From positions 372,001 to 436,000 of the forward strand of contig NZ_CP117460.1 in assembly GCF_030687145.1 (NCBI RefSeq): 64,000 nt of DNA, in the 5' to 3' direction. The first letter of the stretch is position 1, and every line of letters starts with the position of its first letter. Shown one piece after another: positions 45,396 through 59,583 of the stretch. Origin of the DNA: Pseudomonas sp. FP1742 (GTDB lineage: Bacteria > Pseudomonadota > Gammaproteobacteria > Pseudomonadales > Pseudomonadaceae). The notes beneath the pieces are model-generated. The model was not told where the DNA came from. It made no database searches and saw nothing but the letters and a program-made list of their open reading frames with translations. The position numbers and the translations under genes are program-made.

Positions 45396-47078
45396 GTGAC
45401 TGAGAATAAACCTACTAAGTTTCGTGACGTTGAAATCCGTGCTGCCCGCGGTAACAAGCTGACCGCCAAGAGCTGGCTGACTGAGGCGCCGCTGCGCATG
45501 CTGATGAACAACCTTGACCCGGAAGTCGCCGAGAACCCTAAAGAACTGGTGGTTTACGGTGGTATCGGTCGTGCGGCACGTAACTGGGAATGCTACGACA
45601 AGATCGTCGAAAGCCTGACCAACCTGAACGACGACGAGACCCTGCTGGTGCAATCCGGCAAGCCGGTCGGCGTGTTCAAAACCCACAGCAACGCCCCGCG
45701 CGTGCTGATCGCCAACTCCAACCTGGTGCCGCACTGGGCGAGCTGGGAACACTTCAACGAACTCGACGCCAAAGGCCTGGCCATGTACGGCCAAATGACC
45801 GCCGGCAGCTGGATCTACATCGGCAGCCAAGGCATCGTCCAGGGCACCTACGAAACCTTCGTCGAAGCCGGTCGCCAGCACTACAACGATGACCTGAAAG
45901 GCAAGTGGGTCCTGACCGCGGGCCTGGGCGGCATGGGTGGTGCGCAACCTCTGGCTGCAACCCTGGCCGGCGCGTGCTCGCTGAACATCGAATGCCAGCA
46001 AGTGAGCATCGATTTCCGCCTGAAAACCCGTTACGTCGACGAGCAAGCCAAAGACCTCGACGACGCACTGGCCCGTATCGCCAAGTACACCGCTGAAGGC
46101 AAGGCGATCTCCATCGCCCTGTGCGGTAACGCGGCTGAAATCCTGCCGGAAATGGTCCGTCGCGGCGTACGTCCGGACATGGTCACCGACCAGACCAGCG
46201 CCCACGACCCGCTCAACGGTTACCTGCCAGCCGGCTGGACCTGGGAGGAGTACCGCGCTCGCGCCAAGACCGAGCCTGCTGCCGTGGTCAAAGCCGCCAA
46301 GCAATCGATGGCCGTGCACGTTAAGGCGATGCTGGACTTCCAGAAAATGGGGGTTCCGACCTTCGACTACGGCAACAACATCCGTCAGATGGCGCAAGAA
46401 GAAGGCGTGGAAAACGCATTCGACTTCCCAGGGTTCGTACCGGCTTACATTCGTCCACTGTTCTGCCGTGGCATCGGCCCGTTCCGTTGGGCTGCGCTGT
46501 CGGGCGACCCGCAGGACATCTACAAGACCGACGCCAAAGTCAAAGAACTGATCCCGGACGACGCCCACCTGCACAACTGGCTGGACATGGCCCGCGAGCG
46601 CATCAGCTTCCAGGGTCTGCCGGCACGTATCTGCTGGGTTGGCCTGGGCCTGCGCGCCAAGCTCGGTCTGGCGTTCAACGAAATGGTGCGCAGCGGTGAA
46701 TTGTCCGCGCCCATCGTGATCGGTCGTGACCACCTGGACTCCGGTTCGGTTGCCAGCCCGAACCGCGAAACCGAGTCGATGCAGGACGGTTCCGACGCCG
46801 TATCCGACTGGCCACTGCTCAACGCCCTGCTCAATACCGCGAGCGGCGCGACCTGGGTTTCCCTGCACCACGGCGGCGGCGTCGGCATGGGCTTCTCCCA
46901 GCACTCGGGCATGGTGATTGTCTGCGACGGTACTGACGAAGCGGCCGAGCGTATCGCTCGCGTGCTGCACAACGACCCGGCCACCGGCGTCATGCGTCAC
47001 GCCGATGCCGGTTACCAGATCGCGATCGACTGCGCCAAGGAGCAGGGCCTGAACCTGCCGATGATTACCGGCAAGTAA
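45396..47078 (+). CDS. hutU: urocanate hydratase
   Basis: 560 residues starting at GTG (45396), with GAGGAG eight bases upstream. The NAD-binding segments [19 protein letters not shown] (printed as [15 protein letters not shown] near 130) and [17 protein letters not shown] near 176 and the catalytic Cys region [14 protein letters not shown] near 364 are in place. It converts urocanate to imidazolonepropionate with tightly bound NAD. Expression should depend on sigma-54 and be repressed by HutC, from the elements upstream. It is separated from the permease gene by a REP pair. Confidence 0.97.
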
Positions 47079-48772: not shown

Positions 48773-49741
48773 ATGAAATCGAACAAGACCCTGCTGACCA
48801 CATTGCTTTCCATGGGCCTGCTGGCCAGTGCCGGTGCTACCCAAGCGGCTGGCTGGTGCGAATCGGGTAAACCGGTGAAATTCGCCGGCCTGAACTGGGA
48901 AAGCGCCATGCTGCTGACCGACGTGCTGCAAGTCGTGTTGGAGAAAGGCTACGACTGCAAGACCGACAGCCTGCCAGGCAACTCCATCACCATGGAAAAC
49001 GCCCTGAGCAGCAACGATATCCAGGTGTTCGCCGAAGAGTGGGTCGGCCGTAGCGAAGTCTGGAACAAGGCCGAGAAGGCCGGCAAGGTCGTCGGTGTCG
49101 GCGCTCCGGTGGTGGGTGCCGTCGAAGGCTGGTACGTGCCGCGCTACGTGATCGAAGGCGACGCCAAGCGCAAACTGGAAGCCAAGGCGCCGGACCTGAA
49201 AAACATTGCCGACCTGGCCAAGTATTCCGCGCTGTTCAAGGACGCCGAAGAGCCTTCCAAGGGCCGTTTCTACAACTGCCCGGCCGGTTGGACCTGCGAG
49301 CTGGATAACAGCGAAATGCTGAAAAGCTACGGCCTGGAAAACAGCTACACCAACTTCCGTCCAGGCACCGGCCCGGCGCTGGATGCGGCGGTGCTGTCGA
49401 GCTACAAGCGTGGCGAGCCGATCCTGTTCTACTACTGGTCGCCAACCCCGCTGATGGGCCAGATCGACGTGGTCAAACTGGAAGAAAAACCGGGTGTCGA
49501 CAAGCGCGTGACCATCAAGGTCGGCCTCTCCAAGACTTTCCACGAGCAGGCCCCGGAACTGGTGACCGTGCTGGAAAAGGTCAACCTGCCGATCGACCTG
49601 TTGAATCAGAACCTGGGGCGTATGGCCAAAGAGCGGATCGAGTCGCCAAAACTGGCCAAGATCTTCTTGAAGGAACATCCTGAAGTCTGGCACGCGTGGG
49701 TGAGCGAAGACGCAGCCAAGAAAATCGACGCGGCCTTGTAG
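48773..49741 (+). CDS. hutX: histidine ABC transporter periplasmic protein (betaine-type fold)
   Basis: 322 residues with a signal peptide (about 1-24, ending GATQAA). The mature part is an OpuAC/glycine-betaine-type binding protein: VKFAGLNWESAMLLTDVLQVVL near 35-56, then NDIQVFAEEWVGR, WYVPRYVIEG, and EPILFYYWSPTPLMG near 218-232 with the aromatic residues that cage cationic ligands. Next come hutW and hutV on the same strand, so HutXWV is a full ABC importer. It is described in Pseudomonas as a histidine uptake system, although the family usually takes quaternary amines. Confidence 0.88.
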   Translation: MKSNKTLLTTLLSMGLLASAGATQAAGWCESGKPVKFAGLNWESAMLLTDVLQVVLEKGYDCKTDSLPGNSITMENALSSNDIQVFAEEWVGRSEVWNKAEKAGKVVGVGAPVVGAVEGWYVPRYVIEGDAKRKLEAKAPDLKNIADLAKYSALFKDAEEPSKGRFYNCPAGWTCELDNSEMLKSYGLENSYTNFRPGTGPALDAAVLSSYKRGEPILFYYWSPTPLMGQIDVVKLEEKPGVDKRVTIKVGLSKTFHEQAPELVTVLEKVNLPIDLLNQNLGRMAKERIESPKLAKIFLKEHPEVWHAWVSEDAAKKIDAAL

Positions 49742-49811: not shown

Positions 49812-50663
49812 ATGTTTCCCGAAAGCTTTACCTTTTCCATCGCCGACTGGGTCAATGGTTGGGTCGATTCGCTGGTTACCAACTACGGCGACGTATTCCG
49901 CAGCATCTCCGACACCCTGCTGTGGGCCATCGTCAACCTTGAGGGGTTGCTGCGTGCGGCGCCCTGGTGGCTGATGCTGGCGATCGTGGCGGGCGTGGCC
50001 TGGCACGCGACCCGCAAAGTCGTGACCACGGCAGTTATCGTCGGTCTGTTGTTTCTGGTAGGCGCGGTCGGCCTCTGGGACAAGCTGATGCAGACCCTGG
50101 CGTTGATGATGGTGGCGACGGTCATCTCGGTGCTGATCGGCATTCCGTTGGGCATTCTTTCTGCGCGCAGCAATCGCCTGCGTTCGGTGTTGATGCCGTT
50201 GCTGGACATCATGCAAACCATGCCGAGCTTCGTGTACCTGATCCCGGTGCTGATGCTGTTCGGCCTGGGCAAGGTCCCGGCGATTTTCGCTACCGTTATT
50301 TACGCTGCGCCGCCGCTGATCCGCCTGACCGATCTGGGTATTCGCCAGGTTGACGGTGAAGTGATGGAAGCGATCAACGCCTTCGGTGCCAACCGCTGGC
50401 AGCAACTGTTCGGCGTGCAACTGCCGCTGGCCCTGCCGAGCATCATGGCCGGGATCAACCAGACCACCATGATGGCCCTGTCGATGGTGGTGATCGCCTC
50501 GATGATCGGTGCCCGTGGCTTGGGTGAAGATGTGTTGGTAGGGATTCAGACCCTCAACGTCGGACGTGGCCTTGAGGCCGGTCTGGCGATCGTGATTCTG
50601 GCAGTGGTGATCGACCGCATTACACAGGCGTACGGTCGTGCACGGCATGAGGTGAGCAAATGA
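49812..50663 (+). CDS. hutW: histidine ABC transporter permease (betaine type)
   Basis: 283 residues with about six membrane helices and the EAA loop of ProW-type permeases: VDGEVMEAINAFGANRWQQLFGVQLPLALP, here quoted only as VDGEVMEAINAFGANRWQ, near 180-197, followed by IMAGINQTTMMALSMVVIAS. It forms the channel with HutV as ATPase and HutX as receptor. The ATG of hutV overlaps its stop by four bases. Confidence 0.9.
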   Translation: MFPESFTFSIADWVNGWVDSLVTNYGDVFRSISDTLLWAIVNLEGLLRAAPWWLMLAIVAGVAWHATRKVVTTAVIVGLLFLVGAVGLWDKLMQTLALMMVATVISVLIGIPLGILSARSNRLRSVLMPLLDIMQTMPSFVYLIPVLMLFGLGKVPAIFATVIYAAPPLIRLTDLGIRQVDGEVMEAINAFGANRWQQLFGVQLPLALPSIMAGINQTTMMALSMVVIASMIGARGLGEDVLVGIQTLNVGRGLEAGLAIVILAVVIDRITQAYGRARHEVSK

Positions 50664-51490
50664 GCAGCGCAGCCATCAGCAAGATCGAAGTCAAAAACGT
50701 CTTCAAGATTTTCGGCAACCGTTCCAAGGATGCGCTGGCGATGATTAGCCAGGGCAAAACCAAAGACCAGGTGCTGGCCGAAACCGGTTGCGTGGTCGGC
50801 GTGAATGACCTGTCGTTGAGCATCGCCACCGGCGAGATCTTCGTGATCATGGGCCTGTCGGGTTCCGGCAAGTCGACCCTGGTGCGCCACTTCAACCGCC
50901 TGATCGACCCCACCAGCGGTGCGATCCTGGTGGACGGCGTGGACATCCTGCAATACGACATGGAAGCCCTGCGCGAATTTCGCCGGCACAAGATCAGCAT
51001 GGTATTCCAGAGCTTCGGCCTGCTGCCGCACAAGACCGTGCTGGATAACGTCGCCTACGGCCTGAAAGTGCGTGGCGAGAGCAAGCAGGTGTGTGCCGAA
51101 CGCGCGCTGCACTGGATCAACACCGTGGGCCTGAAGGGCTACGAAAACAAATACCCGCATCAGCTTTCCGGCGGCATGCGCCAGCGTGTGGGCCTGGCGC
51201 GGGCACTGGCGGCGGACACCGACATCATCCTGATGGACGAAGCCTTCAGCGCCCTCGACCCGCTGATCCGCGCTGAAATGCAGGATCAGTTGCTGGAACT
51301 GCAAAAGACCCTGCACAAGACCATCGTCTTCATCACCCACGACCTCGACGAGGCCGTGCGTATCGGCAACCGCATCGCGATCCTCAAGGATGGCCGGCTG
51401 ATTCAGGTCGGTACGCCACGGGAGATCCTGCATTCGCCGGCGGACGAGTATGTAGACCGGTTCGTACAGCGGCGGGCGGCGGTGGTTTAA
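50660..51490 (+). CDS. hutV: histidine ABC transporter ATP-binding protein (betaine type)
   Basis: 276 residues: a ProV-type N-terminal extension (FGNRSKDALAMISQGKTKD), Walker A GLSGSGKST near residue 70, the ABC signature LSGGMRQRVGLAR near 172, Walker B DIILMDEAFSALD and the switch His in VFITHDLDEA. Unlike ProV it ends without a CBS pair, so there is no ionic-strength sensor. The start overlaps the hutW stop. REP units follow the stop. Confidence 0.93.
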   Translation: MSSAAISKIEVKNVFKIFGNRSKDALAMISQGKTKDQVLAETGCVVGVNDLSLSIATGEIFVIMGLSGSGKSTLVRHFNRLIDPTSGAILVDGVDILQYDMEALREFRRHKISMVFQSFGLLPHKTVLDNVAYGLKVRGESKQVCAERALHWINTVGLKGYENKYPHQLSGGMRQRVGLARALAADTDIILMDEAFSALDPLIRAEMQDQLLELQKTLHKTIVFITHDLDEAVRIGNRIAILKDGRLIQVGTPREILHSPADEYVDRFVQRRAAVV

Positions 51491-51512: not shown

Positions 51513-51614
51513 CCTCTTCGCGAGCAAGCCCGCTCCCACATTGGATTGTTGGTGTATTAAAAATTTGTGTTCTACACAGATCCAGTGTGGGAGCGGGCTT
51601 GCTCGCGAAGGCGG
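51513..51614. repeat. two REP units, outward orientation
   Basis: CTTCGCGAGCAAGCCCGCTC (with CCACATTGG) and GTGTGGGAGCGGGCTTGCTC are about 50 bases apart, between hutV and the first lyase gene. Confidence 0.85.
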
Positions 51615-51660
51615 CGGTGAAGCTGCATCAAATATTCAAGTTGTACGCACGAGGTCAATG

Positions 51661-53199
51661 ATGTCCCAGGCTGAAAAAATCGTTATCGCCGATGCCCCGT
51701 TGCGTTGGCAGGATGTGGTCGCGGTCGCCCGCCATGGCGCGCAGCTCGAGCTGTCGGCCCAAACCTGGGCGCGGATCGAAAATGCCCAGGCGATCGTCCA
51801 GCGCATCGTCGCCAGCGGCGAGCGCGCCTATGGCGTCAACACCGGCCTGGGCGCCTTGTGCAACGTTTCGCTCAAGGACGAACAACTCAGCCAACTGTCG
51901 CGCAACACCCTGCTCAGCCATGCCTGTGGCGTTGGCGCACCGCTGGCCGACGAACAGACCCGCGCGATTATTTGCGCCGCGATCCACAACTACAGCCACG
52001 GCAAATCCGGCATTCATCGCCGGGTGGTCGAAGCGTTGCTGGCGCTGCTCAATCGCGGCATCACCCCGCAAGTGCCGTCCCAGGGGTCGGTCGGTTACCT
52101 GACCCACATGGCCCACATTGGCATCGCGCTGCTGGGCGTCGGCAATGTCAGCTATCGCGGGCAGATCGTTTCCGCACAACAAGCCTTGGCCGAAGAAGGG
52201 CTGCAACCGGTTCAACTGGGTGCCAAAGATGGTTTGTGCCTGGTCAACGGCACACCGTGCATGACTGGCCTCAGCTGCCTGGCCCTGGCCGATGCAACCC
52301 GTCTCGTGCAGTGGGCCGACGTGGTCGGCGCCATGAGCTTCGAAGCCCAGCGTGGCCAGATTGCCGCGTTCGATGCCGAGATCATTGCGCTCAAACCGCA
52401 TCCGGGCATGCAACAGGTGGGTATCAATCTGCGAGCGTTGCTCGACGGCAGTGAAGTGATCGCCAGCAGCAAAGGCATTCGCACTCAGGATGCGCTGAGC
52501 ATTCGCTCGATTCCGCAAGTGCACGGCGCTGCCCGCGATCAGCTGGAACACGCCAGAAAACAGATCGAAACCGAGCTCAACTCCGCGACCGACAACCCGT
52601 TGCTGCTGGGCACGCCGGACAATTTCCGCGTCATGTCCCAGGCCAATCCACACGGCCAATCGGTTGCTTTGGCGGCTGACTTGCTGGCGATCGCCATGGC
52701 CGAAATCGGTTCCATCGCCGAACGTCGCCTGGACCGCCTGGTCAACCCGCACGTCAGCGGTTTGCCGGCCTTTCTGGTGGCCAATCCGGGTGTGAACTCC
52801 GGGATGATGATCGTGCAATACGTCGCCGCGTCACTGTGCGCGGAAAACCGCCAATTGGCACAACCGGCGGTGCTCGATAACTATGTCACTTCGGGCTTGC
52901 AGGAGGACCATCTGAGCATGGGCACCAACGCTGCGCTGAAGCTGCATCGCGCATTGGAAAACTGCACGCAGATCCTCGCCATCGAATACTTGTTGGCAGC
53001 TCAGGCTTTTGAATTCTTGAAGGCTGACTTTTCCAAGGGCTCGGGTTTTGGCGCCGGCACCGGTGCCGCGTGGCGCCTGCTGCGCGAACGTATTCCGGCC
53101 TATGACCAGGACCGCTGGCTGGCACCGGACATCGCCTGCGCCGCTGCTGTTTTGAAAGACCCGATTTTGCTGCACAAGGCTTTACCGAACCTCAACTGA
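51661..53199 (+). CDS. hutH1: HAL/PAL-family lyase homologue lacking the MIO tripeptide
   Basis: 512 residues from the ATG at 51661 (GAGG six bases upstream). It aligns end to end with the histidine ammonia-lyase next door. Kept: Tyr57 in AYGVNTGLG, His87 in SHACGVG, Asn196 in LVNGT, Arg282 and Glu415 in LQEDHLS. Lost: the Ala-Ser-Gly that makes the MIO cofactor. The sequence reads QGSVG then YLTHMAH, an exact three-residue gap between Gly145 and Tyr146. The usual catalytic Tyr of the [10 protein letters not shown] motif is Leu279 here, and a conserved Phe of NFHAEP is Pro330. It should therefore not deaminate histidine. It stands second to hutH in the hut cluster, full length and undamaged. 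The role is unknown; a lyase-like binding protein or partner subunit is possible. Confidence 0.85.
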   Translation: MSQAEKIVIADAPLRWQDVVAVARHGAQLELSAQTWARIENAQAIVQRIVASGERAYGVNTGLGALCNVSLKDEQLSQLSRNTLLSHACGVGAPLADEQTRAIICAAIHNYSHGKSGIHRRVVEALLALLNRGITPQVPSQGSVGYLTHMAHIGIALLGVGNVSYRGQIVSAQQALAEEGLQPVQLGAKDGLCLVNGTPCMTGLSCLALADATRLVQWADVVGAMSFEAQRGQIAAFDAEIIALKPHPGMQQVGINLRALLDGSEVIASSKGIRTQDALSIRSIPQVHGAARDQLEHARKQIETELNSATDNPLLLGTPDNFRVMSQANPHGQSVALAADLLAIAMAEIGSIAERRLDRLVNPHVSGLPAFLVANPGVNSGMMIVQYVAASLCAENRQLAQPAVLDNYVTSGLQEDHLSMGTNAALKLHRALENCTQILAIEYLLAAQAFEFLKADFSKGSGFGAGTGAAWRLLRERIPAYDQDRWLAPDIACAAAVLKDPILLHKALPNLN

Positions 53200-53310: not shown

Positions 53311-54849
53311 ATGAATGTGACTGCGCTTAATTTGATTCCCGGCCAACTGAGCCTTGCCCAACTGCGTGATGTTTATCAGCAACCGGTGAAAATCACCCTC
53401 GACGAAAGCGCTGCGGCGCAAATCGAAGCCAGTGTTGCCTGCGTGGAACAGATTCTCGCCGAGAACCGCACCGCGTATGGCATCAACACCGGTTTCGGCC
53501 TGCTGGCCTCGACCCGCATCGCCAGCGAAGACCTGGAAAACCTCCAGCGCTCGCTGGTGCTGTCCCATGCCGCCGGTGTCGGCGAGCCGATCAGCGACGC
53601 TTTGGTGCGGTTGGTCATGGTGCTCAAGGTCAACAGCCTGAGCCGTGGTTTCTCCGGCATTCGTCGGCAGGTGATCGATGCCCTGATCGCACTGATCAAT
53701 GCCGAGGTTTACCCGCATATTCCTCTGAAAGGTTCAGTCGGTGCATCCGGCGACCTGGCGCCGTTGGCGCATATGTCGCTGGTGCTGTTGGGCGAAGGCA
53801 AGGCGCGTTACAAAGGTGAATGGCTGCCCGCCACCGAAGCGCTGAAAGTCGCCGGTCTGACGCCGCTGACCCTGGCAGCGAAAGAAGGCCTGGCGCTGCT
53901 TAACGGCACTCAGGTGTCCACCGCCTACGCCCTGCGTGGCCTGTTCGAAGGCGAAGATCTGTTCGCCGGCGCCCTGGCCCTTGGCGGCCTGACGGTCGAA
54001 GCGGTACTGGGCTCGCGCTCGCCATTCGACGCGCGCATCCACGCGGCTCGTGGCCAGAAAGGCCAGATCGACGCCGCTGCTGCTTACCGCGATTTGCTGG
54101 GCGAGCGCAGTGAAGTGTCCGACTCGCACCAGAACTGCGAAAAGGTCCAGGACCCGTACTCCCTGCGTTGCCAACCGCAGGTCATGGGCGCCTGCCTGAC
54201 CCAGTTCCGTCAGGCCGCCGAAGTGCTCGCCATCGAAGCCAACGCCGTATCGGACAACCCATTGGTGTTCGCCGCTGAAGGCGACGTGATTTCCGGCGGT
54301 AACTTCCACGCCGAGCCGGTGGCCATGGCCGCCGACAACATGGCCCTGGCCATCGCCGAAATCGGTTCCCTGAGCGAGCGCCGCATCTCGCTGATGATGG
54401 ACAAGCACATGTCGCAACTGCCGCCGTTCCTGGTGGCCAATGGCGGCGTGAACTCCGGTTTCATGATCGCCCAGGTGACTGCGGCGGCACTGGCCAGCGA
54501 GAACAAGGCGCTGTCCCATCCGCATTCGGTGGACAGCCTGCCGACTTCCGCCAACCAGGAAGACCACGTGTCCATGGCGCCGGCTGCCGGCAAGCGTCTG
54601 TGGGAAATGGCCGAGAACACTCGCGGGATTCTCGCGGTGGAATGGTTGGCCGCGGCCCAGGGGCTGGACCTGCGCGACGGTCTGAAAACTTCGCCAAAAC
54701 TGGAAAAAGCCCGGGCGATCCTGCGTGCTGAAGTGCCGTTCTATGAGAAGGACCGCTTCTTTGCGCCGGACATCAATGCGGCCAGTGAGTTGTTGGCGAC
54801 GCGTTGCCTGAATGACCTGGTGACGGCGAAGTTGCTGCCTAGCCTGTAA
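53311..54849 (+). CDS. hutH: histidine ammonia-lyase
   Basis: 512 residues with the intact MIO motif Ala145-Ser146-Gly147 in [15 protein letters not shown], plus Tyr56, His86, Asn198, the [10 protein letters not shown] region ([10 protein letters not shown]), [12 protein letters not shown] and NQEDHVS. It removes ammonia from L-histidine to give trans-urocanate, the first step of the hut route and the source of the inducer. It has a strong SD, AAAGGAG. It probably arose with hutH1 by duplication, but only this copy keeps the catalytic set. A strong hairpin follows. Confidence 0.97.
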
Positions 54850-56358: not shown

Positions 56359-57564
56359 ATGAAAACGCTCTGGCAACACTGCCACGTCGCAACCATGGCG
56401 CAAGGCGTCTACTCGATCATCGAGGATGCGGCCATCGTGACGTCCGGTGCGCACATTCAGTGGATTGGTCCGCGCGATGAACTGCCGGCTGGTGAGTACC
56501 CGGCCGTCAATGACCTCAAGGGGGCCTGGGTCACTCCGGGCCTGATCGACTGCCACACCCACACGGTGTTCGGCGGCAACCGCAGCGGCGAATTCGAGCA
56601 GCGCCTGCAAGGCGTCAGCTACGCGGAAATCGCCGCAGCCGGCGGCGGCATTGCCAGCACCGTGCGCGCCACCCGTGCCGCCAGTGAAGATGAGCTGTTC
56701 GCCAGCGCTGCCAAGCGGCTGAAAAGCCTGATGCGCGATGGCGTGACCACGGTCGAAATGAAATCCGGCTACGGCCTGGACCTGGCCAGCGAACGCAAGA
56801 TCCTGCGGGTGATCCGTCGTCTCGGCTCCGAGCTACCCGTCAGCGTGCGCAGCACGTGCCTGGCGGCCCACGCCTTGCCGCCGGAATACGTCGACCGCGC
56901 CGACGCGTACATCGATCACATCTGCAGCGAAATGCTCCCGGCCCTGGCGGCTGAAGGGCTGGTGGATGCGGTGGACGCTTTCTGTGAATACCTGGCGTTT
57001 TCGCCAGAGCAGGTCGAGCGGGTGTTCGTCGCCGCGCAGAATCTTGGCTTGCCGGTGAAGCTGCACGCCGAGCAATTGTCGTCGTTGCACGGTTCGAGCC
57101 TGGCGGCGCGTTACCACGCGCTGTCCGCCGATCATCTGGAATTCATGACCGAAGACGACGCCATTGCCATGGCCAAGTCCGGCACCGTCGCGGTACTGCT
57201 GCCCGGCGCGTTTTACTTCCTGCGGGAAACCCAATTGCCGCCGATGGAAGCCCTGCGCAAACACGGTGTGAAAATCGCCATCGCCAGCGACCTCAACCCG
57301 GGCACTTCGCCGGCGTTGTCGTTGCGCTTAATGCTGAACATGGCCTGCACCTGCTTGCGCATGACCCCGGAAGAGGCGCTGGCGGGCGCAACTATCCACG
57401 CGGCCACCGCGTTGGGCATGGGCCAAACCCACGGTTCGCTGGAAGCCGGCAAGGTCGCAGACTTCGTCGCCTGGCAAATCGATCGTCCGGCCGACCTGTC
57501 GTACTGGTTGGGTGGCGATCTGGAAAAACGCGTCGTGCGTCACGGCGTTGAAACAAGCGTTTAG
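56359..57564 (+). CDS. hutI: imidazolonepropionase
   Basis: 401 residues of the amidohydrolase fold. The metal site [14 protein letters not shown] (near residues 72-85) is followed by KLHAEQLSS with a metal His near 236, SADHLEFM with His, and IASDLNPGT with Asp. It hydrolyses imidazolonepropionate to N-formimino-L-glutamate. The SD is AACGGAGG-like (ACGGAGGCC at 56345). The TAG stop overlaps the ribosome-binding site of hutG. Confidence 0.96.
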
Positions 57565-57574
57565 GAGAGCAGTT

Positions 57575-58378
57575 GTGGATAAGGTTCTGAACTTCAAACA
57601 AGGCCGCGTGCCGCTGCTGATCAGCATGCCCCACGCCGGCCTGCGCCTGACTCCTGCGGTGGAAGCGGGGTTGATCCCCGACGCGAAAAGCCTGCCGGAT
57701 ACGGACTGGCACATCCCACGGCTTTACGAGTTTGCCGACGAACTGGGCGCCAGCACCCTGGCGGCCGAGTACTCGCGGTTTGTCATCGATTTGAACCGGC
57801 CGTCCGACGACAAGCCTTTGTATGTCGGCGCCACCACTGGTCTGTATCCGGCGACGCTGTTCGACGGCGTGCCGTTGTTCCGCGAAGGCCTGGAGCCGTC
57901 GGCTGCAGAACGGGCAATGTATCTGGAGCAGATCTGGACGCCGTACCACCGCACCTTGCAGGAAGAACTGGCACGGCTGAAAGCCGAGTTCGGCTATGCG
58001 CTGCTGTTCGACGCGCACTCGATCCGCTCGATCATCCCGCACCTGTTCGACGGCAAGCTGCCGGACTTCAACCTCGGCACCTTCAACGGCGCCAGTTGCG
58101 ATCCGCAGTTGGCCACACAGCTGGAAGCGATCTGCGCGAAGCACACCGATTACAGCCATGTGCTGAACGGTCGCTTCAAGGGCGGGCATATCACCCGGCA
58201 TTACGGCAACCCGGCCGAGAACATTCATGCCGTGCAACTGGAGTTGGGCCAGTGCACCTATATGGAAGAGTTCCAGCCGTTCCGTTATCGCCCGGACCTG
58301 GCTGCACCGACGCAAGTGGTGCTCAGGGAGTTGCTGCAAGGGTTGTTGGCGTGGGGGCGGCAGCGATATCAAGCTTAA
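57575..58378 (+). CDS. hutG: N-formylglutamate deformylase
   Basis: 267 residues from the GTG at 57575, with AGGAG (57563-57567) seven bases upstream; an earlier ATG lies inside hutI and is rejected. Landmarks of the family are LISMPHAGLRLTP near 16-28 (metal His), DLNRPSDDKPLY near 71, LLFDAHSIRS near 150 and FKGGHITRHYG near 206. It hydrolyses N-formylglutamate to glutamate and formate, completing the pathway from hutF. A REP pair ends the operon. Confidence 0.95.
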   Translation: MDKVLNFKQGRVPLLISMPHAGLRLTPAVEAGLIPDAKSLPDTDWHIPRLYEFADELGASTLAAEYSRFVIDLNRPSDDKPLYVGATTGLYPATLFDGVPLFREGLEPSAAERAMYLEQIWTPYHRTLQEELARLKAEFGYALLFDAHSIRSIIPHLFDGKLPDFNLGTFNGASCDPQLATQLEAICAKHTDYSHVLNGRFKGGHITRHYGNPAENIHAVQLELGQCTYMEEFQPFRYRPDLAAPTQVVLRELLQGLLAWGRQRYQA

Positions 58379-58635: not shown

Positions 58636-59583
58636 ATGAAACGACTGTTCAACCGCTGTCTGTTAATCCTCACCGGCACTGCTCTTCTGAGCACCAGCGT
58701 TTTCGCTAACGACCCCGCTTCCTGCAAGACCGTGCGCATGGGCGTGGTCAACTGGACCGACGTCATCGCCACCAGCGGCATGGCCGATGTGCTGCTCAAC
58801 GGTCTTGGCTACGAAAGCAAGCAAACCAGCGCCGTGCAACAAATCATCTTCGCCGGCATTCGCGACAAGCGTCTGGATATTTTCCTTGGTTACTGGAGAC
58901 CGGCGATGGACAAGAACATCGCCCCGTTCGTCGCCGCCAATCAGGTGAAAGTCATGGACAAACCGAGCCTGGCCGACGCCCAGGCAACACTCGCCGTACC
59001 TGACTACGTCGCTGCCGCCGGCCTGAAAACCTTCGCCGATATCGCCAGATTCAAGGAGCAGCTCGGTGGCAAGATCTACGGCATCGAGCCGGGCAGCGGC
59101 GCCAACACCACCATCAAAACCATGATCGAGACCAACCGCTTTGGCTTGAAAGACTTCAAACTGATCGAGTCCGGTGAGGCCGGGATGCTTGCCGCCGTGC
59201 AACGGGCGGTCAATCGCAAGGAGTTCGTGGTATTCGTCGGCTGGACCCCGCATCCGATGAACATCAACATGAACATCGCCTACCTGACCGGCAGCGAAGA
59301 CGTCTACGGCCCGAACGAAGGCGCGGCGACCGTTTCCACCGTGACCGCGCCGGACTATGCCGAGCGTTGCCCGAACGTGAACCGCCTGCTGGAAAACCTG
59401 ACCTTCACCGCGGCTCAGGAAAGCCAGTTGATGGTGCCGATCATGGAACGCAAGACGCCGCAGGATGTCGCCAAACAGTGGTTGCGTGATCATCCCGAAG
59501 ACCTTCAGCGCTGGCTGGCGGGTGTCAGCAGTTTCGATGGCAAGGATGGCGTGGCAACCGTTCAGGCCAGTTTGAAACACTGA
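58636..59583 (+). CDS. choline/betaine-type ABC transporter binding protein (orphan)
   Basis: 315 residues with a signal peptide (MKRLFNRCLLILTGTALLSTSVFA). The mature part is an OpuAC-type quaternary amine binding protein with MGVVNWTDVIATSGMADVLL near 35-54, the aromatic YWRPAMDK, IYGIEPGSGANTT and FVVFVGWTPHPMN, the last two carrying ligand-caging Trp/Tyr residues. The closest known relatives are choline or betaine receptors (CbcX/ChoX type). There is no permease or ATPase next to it. It may use HutWV, which are of the same transporter type, or an importer elsewhere. Confidence 0.82.
   Translation: MKRLFNRCLLILTGTALLSTSVFANDPASCKTVRMGVVNWTDVIATSGMADVLLNGLGYESKQTSAVQQIIFAGIRDKRLDIFLGYWRPAMDKNIAPFVAANQVKVMDKPSLADAQATLAVPDYVAAAGLKTFADIARFKEQLGGKIYGIEPGSGANTTIKTMIETNRFGLKDFKLIESGEAGMLAAVQRAVNRKEFVVFVGWTPHPMNINMNIAYLTGSEDVYGPNEGAATVSTVTAPDYAERCPNVNRLLENLTFTAAQESQLMVPIMERKTPQDVAKQWLRDHPEDLQRWLAGVSSFDGKDGVATVQASLKH

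Follow-up and report, generated by a model that had tools for sequence, protein, structure and literature searches.

The window analysed here is a stretch of 64,000 nucleotides from Pseudomonas sp. FP1742 (contig NZ_CP117460.1, positions 372,001 to 436,000 of the forward strand). Within its histidine utilization (hut) operon lies hutH1, a gene of the histidine ammonia-lyase (HAL) superfamily whose product lacks the Ala-Ser-Gly triad (ASG) needed for the 4-methylideneimidazole-5-one (MIO) electrophile. The gene, the altered site and the adjoining canonical gene are as follows, in window coordinates:

51661..53199, + strand: hutH1, MIO-less HAL-superfamily lyase of 512 residues (open reading frame, family matches, alignment, tree)
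52084..52119, + strand: GSVGYLTHMAHI, the site of the MIO segment in canonical HutH, with Tyr146 and His149 in its place (alignments)
53311..54849, + strand: hutH (hutH2), canonical histidine ammonia-lyase with ASG (TIGR01225, residue comparison)

The hutH1 open reading frame (ORF) was open over all 512 codons, with a second in-frame ATG at 51658, and its product aligned with the adjoining HutH over 499 columns at 39% identity, bearing out an earlier sequence-only reading that had described an intact, full-length paralogue. Both proteins matched PF00221 in Pfam. The NCBIfam equivalog model for HutH, TIGR01225, scored the adjoining HutH at 730.8 bits and HutH1 at 542.7 bits, just over its cut-off of 539.15; because of this narrow pass, annotation pipelines will tend to name HutH1 a histidine ammonia-lyase. 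The window protein is about 5 residues longer near its C-terminal part (53020-53060) than orthologues of 507 residues. Between hutV and hutH1, at 51516-51610, is a pair of inverted repeats, likely of the repetitive extragenic palindromic (REP) type, with 31-nt arms that are 97% complementary and separated by 33 nt.

At the MIO site HutH1 reads GSVG-YLTHMAHI. The last base of Gly145 is at 52095 and the first base of Tyr146 at 52096, and the net loss relative to hutH is exactly three codons. The junction and the size of the loss thus agree with the sequence-only reading, but its description of a precise ASG deletion corresponds to just one of two equally valid alignments: in the first, ASG was lost and Asp145 changed to Tyr; in the second, Ser-Gly-Asp was lost and Ala142 changed to Tyr (HutH residues). 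Pro148 of HutH is also replaced, by His in HutH1.

This is neither a sequencing slip nor a private mutation. A first search for relatives returned 7640 proteins at E<=0.001, and GSVGYLTHMAH was common to the window protein and all of the best 120 (85-92% identity). ASG was also absent from each of the best 120 of 7433 relatives of a distant homologue, L040 (its own record included). In the genus Pseudomonas, 105 of 149 genomes matched HutH1 at E<=1e-100; one of these matches (G514) is a canonical ASG protein, leaving 104 genomes, including this one, at 59-100% identity, a count in which the motif was read only in fetched loci. A local mutation or frameshift is ruled out by the motif in 120/120 best relatives and by this genus-wide occurrence. 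Among 369 genomes drawn from the class, only this one and one other contained a DNA pattern for the MIO-site motif. When a distant member served as query against 398 genomes sampled over the phylum, 23 had relatives at E<=1e-105, among them the present genome and seven that do not belong to the class. The MIO-less proteins then read from newly fetched stretches, 13 in number, all carry GS[VA]GY. Database names of relatives include Paraburkholderia and Rhizobium, and one named locus is from Paracoccus.

To what extent the rest of the active site is retained was clear from 242 non-identical MIO-less proteins; these were picked by their MIO-site motif, and only residues outside it are informative. 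Tyr57, His87, Asn196, Gln276, Leu279, Arg282 and Glu415 were present in 242/242, with Pro330 in 239, Asn329 in 240 and His331 in 240. In HAL numbering, Tyr53, His83, Asn195, Gln277, Arg283 and Glu414 were each kept in 242/242 HutH1-type proteins; in a canonical set (n=124, picked by ASGDL), Tyr280 and Phe329 were invariant as well. What HutH1 lacks of HutH is therefore ASG, Tyr280 (now Leu279) and Phe329 (now Pro330), the latter two being residues that we take to adjoin MIO in HAL. The residues listed as kept or changed by the sequence-only reading (Tyr57, His87, Asn196, Arg282 and Glu415; Leu279 and Pro330) were all correct, and both changes prove to be conserved ones. We assume the usual roles in HAL (P. 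putida numbering): Tyr53 as base, Arg283 and Asn195 for the carboxylate, His83 and Glu414 for the imidazole. HutH1 also keeps Asn329, His331, His417 and Glu415 of HutH, presumably the surroundings of the imidazole. With the MIO triad and two MIO-side residues lost and the substrate residues kept, HutH1 appears to have dropped the MIO function and retained the function of holding a histidine-like substrate. In the L040 subfamily (the best 120 of 7433, chosen by similarity), Tyr146, His149, Leu279, Tyr57, His87, Gln276, Arg282 and Glu415 were present in 120/120 and Asn196 in 119/120. Residues 329-331 and 417 are unlike those of HutH1, so the side-chain pocket of this subfamily is different and its substrate probably is too.

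A tree of 61 chosen proteins, built with the MIO-site columns and positions 280 and 329 removed, split 16 canonical HutH from 45 MIO-less proteins with support of 100/100. A HutH1 superclade held 43 of the 45 (100/99), with two group B proteins (GSVGYLAVEGH) branching outside it; the MIO-less proteins also grouped together (27/27, 100/99) in a previous tree from which the trait columns had not been removed. Selection was measured as the ratio of nonsynonymous to synonymous substitution rates (dN/dS, method NG86) in 42 loci with hutH1, hutH and hutU, for pairs with dS of 0.15-1.5. The median was 0.121 for hutH1 (858 pairs), 0.069 for hutH (859) and 0.048 for hutU (860). HutH1 is thus under constraint, slightly less than HutH, and the view of it as an old, selected, MIO-less member is upheld by its conservation, the deep supported split and a ratio far below 1.

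Two other kinds of MIO-less protein were seen. Group B of Pseudomonas (L042 7677-9329, L043, L044 and L045) keeps Tyr280 and Phe329, and in L042 and L045 its gene is followed by a HutU copy 93-97% identical to the window HutU. A GSLGAADLAQ-type protein of Salinicola corii (L167 4510-6045), encoded near ABC transporter genes, has Arg for His83, Ala for Asn195 and Leu at 280.

The main clue to the function of HutH1, absent from the sequence-only reading, is its association with transporters. The relevant neighbours in the window are:

45396..47078, + strand: hutU, urocanase, proposed to act after urocanate is formed (ORF)
48773..49741, + strand: hutX, ProX-type periplasmic binding protein, with Trp90, Trp173 and Trp222 aligned to Trp65, Trp140 and Trp188 of E. 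coli ProX
49812..50663, + strand: hutW, permease of a choline/betaine-type ATP-binding cassette (ABC) transporter (best family TIGR03416, 294.7 bits, under the cut-off of 363)
50660..51490, + strand: hutV, betaine/proline/choline-family ABC ATPase (TIGR01186, 370.2 bits, cut-off 326.6)
56359..57564, + strand: hutI (ORF)
57512..58378, + strand: hutG (ORF overlapping hutI, true start probably further in)

The names hutU, hutI, hutG, hutC, hutD and hutT are those we take these genes to bear, and hut names were moved to other loci by BLAST likeness to the window ORFs. The genes hutXWV, for a ProXWV/choline-type ABC transporter, directly precede hutH1; the top families of HutX and HutW are betaine/choline ones, with scores under the family cut-offs. 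In divergent orthologues, the upstream neighbour is instead a betaine/choline/carnitine transporter (BCCT), as in L037, L038 and L047 (PF02028, E 9e-117 to 3e-115) and in further loci. We tallied the nearest upstream same-strand ORF of at least 180 residues in 96 loci (L035-L130), 80 of which ranked highest among 578 confirmed stretches; motif-based patterns had located these stretches, and the ranking was by similarity to a member that has a BCCT neighbour. Six had no MIO-less ORF (four group B loci, the canonical L046, and L123, whose gene was missed by the ORF caller and is found by tblastn). In the remaining 90 the neighbour was HutV/HutW in 64, BCCT in 18, an amino-acid-type ABC gene in 5, a Rieske/Ldh2 cluster in 2 and the contig edge in 1. 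A betaine-type transporter gene (HutXWV or BCCT) was therefore nearest upstream in 82/89 loci, and different lyase clades pair with two unrelated transporter types. One distant MIO-less lyase (L041 6566-12606) lies with a Rieske oxygenase, a DmmA-like reductase, Ldh_2 and an enolase-superfamily enzyme, resembling betaine demethylation clusters. In the window, hutG is followed at 58636-59583 by a second choline-type periplasmic binding protein gene (TIGR03414, 439 bits, cut-off 379), with no dedicated permease gene evident beside it.

Pseudomonads lacking hutH1 served as control. A HutH query matched 15 of 23 genomes (20 without hutH1, plus G476, G507 and G514), giving 12 hut loci once the last three were left out. 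In all 12, hutU and hutH were neighbours among the ORFs considered (those of at least 350 residues or with a family match), and none had a hutX, hutW or hutV orthologue or a BCCT; L192 begins at hutU, at a contig edge. One stretch had an ABC ATPase 28% identical to HutV, away from hutU-hutH. Across the 149 Pseudomonas genomes, HutH1 and HutW (>=84%) occurred together in 99 and were both missing from 39; 5 had HutH1 alone and 6 had HutW alone (Fisher p 5.7e-24, uncorrected for kinship). Three of the five HutH1-only genomes have BCCT upstream and two have amino-acid-type ABC genes nearby. In the HutW-only genomes G507 and G476, hutX was lost along with hutH1, one retaining a 46-residue HutX remnant; three others have a HutX paralogue of 48-50% in another setting, and the sixth is G411, which has full-length HutX, HutW and HutV matches.

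The transporters themselves resemble those of betaine and choline type. All six PDB matches of HutX (6/6) are named as binders of glycine-betaine, proline/betaine or choline, and the E. coli ProX tryptophans with which its Trp90, 173 and 222 align form the betaine cage. These three were kept in 73/73 HutX-like proteins, some from loci without HutH1 (L164-L166 included). The L047 BCCT matched carriers of trimethylamine, betaine, choline and carnitine as well as DddT, and in what we take to be its BetP box Trp189, Tyr197 and Trp374 are retained, positions 194 and 377 are Tyr and position 373 is Ile. An ergothioneine-binding protein holds the histidine-betaine moiety in an aromatic cage of this kind (PMC9732360, in extract).

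These data suggest that HutH1 somewhat more probably than otherwise acts, without MIO, on histidine betaine (hercynine), eliminating trimethylamine and delivering urocanate to the hut pathway, a substrate assignment drawn from residues and gene neighbourhood. HutX would bind histidine betaine, and HutWV (here) or BCCT (in halophiles and some pseudomonads) would import it. HutH1 would grip the carboxylate through Arg282 and Asn196 and the imidazole through His87 and Glu415, as HutH does, and Tyr57 would abstract the beta-proton. MIO would be needed to activate a poor leaving group, ammonia; trimethylamine, already cationic as a quaternary amine, could leave without it. Tyr146 and Leu279 may line the trimethylammonium site, and the urocanate would pass to HutU and then HutI/HutG. 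The catalysis, substrate and products, like the parts given to Tyr146, His149 and Leu279, are what we infer from comparison. Of the three functions offered by the sequence-only reading, that of a non-deaminating enzyme therefore fares best, in the form of a trimethylamine-eliminating lyase, and that of a regulator fits less well. Searches of an open-licence library listed no paper on a hercynine-to-urocanate lyase, and one could exist outside that library.

The genomic company of HutH1 bears on this proposal. A separate HutH match was present in 22/24 genomes with the MIO-less form (51-86% identity), these having been picked mostly because hutH was unseen beside hutH1, and in 18/19 further genomes (51-83%), for which the motif was not read. 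ASG was read in 21 of the 22 (for L151 in a broken-gene fragment); L136 was not read. It should be noted that in L151 (G448) a stop breaks the canonical hutH and hutH1 is open, in an assembly rated 86% complete, where an error is possible. The exceptions in which no canonical HutH was found are Salinicola G519 and G520 (G819, with coordinates identical to those of G520, probably duplicates that genome), with the order hutU-BCCT-hutH1-hutI-hutG. Each has one other HAL-family gene, of ASGDLTPLSY type, and G520 also has a MIO-less GSLGAADLAQ one. HutH1 is apparently the feeder of the urocanate pathway here, in one lineage only and with one genome a metagenome assembly; the arrangement fits a second substrate yielding urocanate.

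Known systems offer comparison. Canonical HutH (P. putida HAL, 1b8f) shares with HutH1 a full-length alignment, the imidazole and carboxylate contacts and the hut operon, but has ASG and MIO, Tyr280 and Phe329, and lies across the 100/100 split. Ergothionase (PDB 6s7j/6s7q, presumably from Treponema denticola) is, like HutH1, a HAL-superfamily member without the MIO triad, with Leu at 280 and with Tyr53, His83, Gln277, Arg283 and Glu414 kept. Its substrate ergothioneine, a thio-histidine bearing an N-trimethyl group, is split into trimethylamine and thiourocanate without MIO (PMC13405746, in extract), and is thus comparable to the substrate proposed for HutH1. The two are 29.5% identical over 464 columns. 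Unlike HutH1, ergothionase (6s7j) reads SSIG-EGD-ITTLSH at the MIO site, with EGD where HutH1 has Y, and has Ser in place of Asn195, still Phe at 329 (Pro in HutH1), Glu at 330 and Ile at 413. HutH1 has neither the SSIG-EGD motif nor Ser at 195, and we rejected true ergothionase membership on these grounds; by analogy, it may be taken to work like ergothionase. Stretches of the ergothionase PDB sequence scored 287.5 bits with a HutH1 profile and 259.4 bits with a HutH profile. A 38-residue ergothionase fragment matched in 16/398 genomes, mostly canonical HALs or what we take to be aryl-polyene-type ones, with two HutH1 (L185, L186) and one ergothionase-like protein (L183 727-2772, GEGDL, best solved-structure match 6s7j).

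In P. fluorescens SBW25, hutTu, hutXWV and hutH1 are inserted between hutU and hutH (PMC8871633, in extract). The window hutH1, with the same name and gene order, is presumably the orthologue; the available part of the SBW25 account says nothing of MIO loss or of another substrate.

Several points weigh against a hercynine lyase. The ergothioneine binder cited above is about 10,000-fold weaker for hercynine than for ergothioneine (PMC9732360, in extract), so an aromatic cage does not reveal its ligand. SBW25 HutXWV participates in histidine uptake (PMC8871633, in extract) and a regulon study lists HutXYZ among the known histidine uptake systems (PMC5343134, in extract); since they are published as such, HutXWV may carry just histidine. 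The active sites of HutH1 and ergothionase are not the same, HutH1 being without EGD and having Asn for Ser, and Pro330 in place of Phe has no obvious role. The tallied loci are mostly from Pseudomonas and phylogenetically non-independent; the amino-acid-type ABC partners in 5/90 loci and several others need not carry betaines; and G411, with full-length HutX, HutW and HutV matches and no HutH1, is a true exception.

Within the idea of a trimethylamine lyase, another N-modified histidine is the main alternative substrate. More generally, HutH1 might be a MIO-free lyase for a different histidine-like compound with a good leaving group, such as ergothioneine or a partly N-methylated or N-modified histidine. 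The same retained residues would serve it, the pockets of sister groups vary at 329-331 and 417, suggesting that substrates vary in the family, and the known MIO-free relative acts on ergothioneine (PMC13405746, in extract). We nevertheless consider it unlikely, as HutH1 keeps the four HutH residues assumed to surround the imidazole, the ordinary hutU alongside fits an unsubstituted imidazole product, and in ergothionase Asn195 and His330 are replaced by Ser and Glu.

Still more doubtful is a role without catalysis, whether in regulation through binding of urocanate or histidine or as a structural subunit alongside HutH in mixed tetramers. In its favour, the known reaction is abolished when MIO is lost, HutH1 is 39% identical to HutH over nearly its full length, and hutH is often co-located. 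A pseudoenzyme would, however, be expected to have lost its catalytic base or substrate contacts, and HutH1 has lost neither: the base and the residues contacting carboxylate and imidazole do not vary among the 242 proteins or, apart from Asn196 in one, among the best 120 of the L040 subfamily, so this explanation fits less well. Many loci have no canonical hutH near hutH1, which makes mixed tetramers somewhat less likely, and none of hutH, hutU, hutI and hutG was recognised within the stretch at ten HutV-HutH1 loci (some P. putida-like; L080 has a divergent LysR gene) or at two BCCT-HutH1 loci. In Salinicola, hutH1 accompanies hutU-hutI-hutG where no canonical HutH was found, and HutC is already urocanate-responsive (PMC8871633, in extract).

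That HutH1 is a histidine ammonia-lyase managing without MIO is very improbable: it narrowly passes TIGR01225, and in two Salinicola genomes nothing else closely HutH-like accompanies hutU, hutI and hutG, but mutating the MIO serine cuts HAL and phenylalanine ammonia-lyase activity >1000-fold (PMC3903478, in extract), and most genomes with the MIO-less form have a separate HutH match of at least 51% identity (22/24 and 18/19). A functionless, degenerating duplicate, to which the somewhat faster evolution than HutH (0.121 vs 0.069) might point, can be dismissed almost entirely given the low dN/dS, the invariant active-site residues and the deep monophyletic age.

Returning to HutH1 as a hercynine lyase, it is an evenly balanced prospect that a widespread MIO-free family now bearing the database name histidine ammonia-lyase is a hercynine trimethylamine-lyase, which together with HutXWV or BCCT gives the hut pathway a further point of entry, used by N-trimethylated histidine, with sister clades acting on other amino-acid betaines and MIO loss separate from that of ergothionase. 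Histidine betaine is a compound of fungi and actinobacteria, and bacteria would have a route for it, with release of trimethylamine. This would explain both the second pseudomonad 'histidase' that is unneeded for histidine and the presence of a betaine-type transporter in hut operons, and would correct a broad annotation error. It would also provide a natural test of the need of HAL for MIO, the electrophile having been dropped when the leaving group is a quaternary amine.
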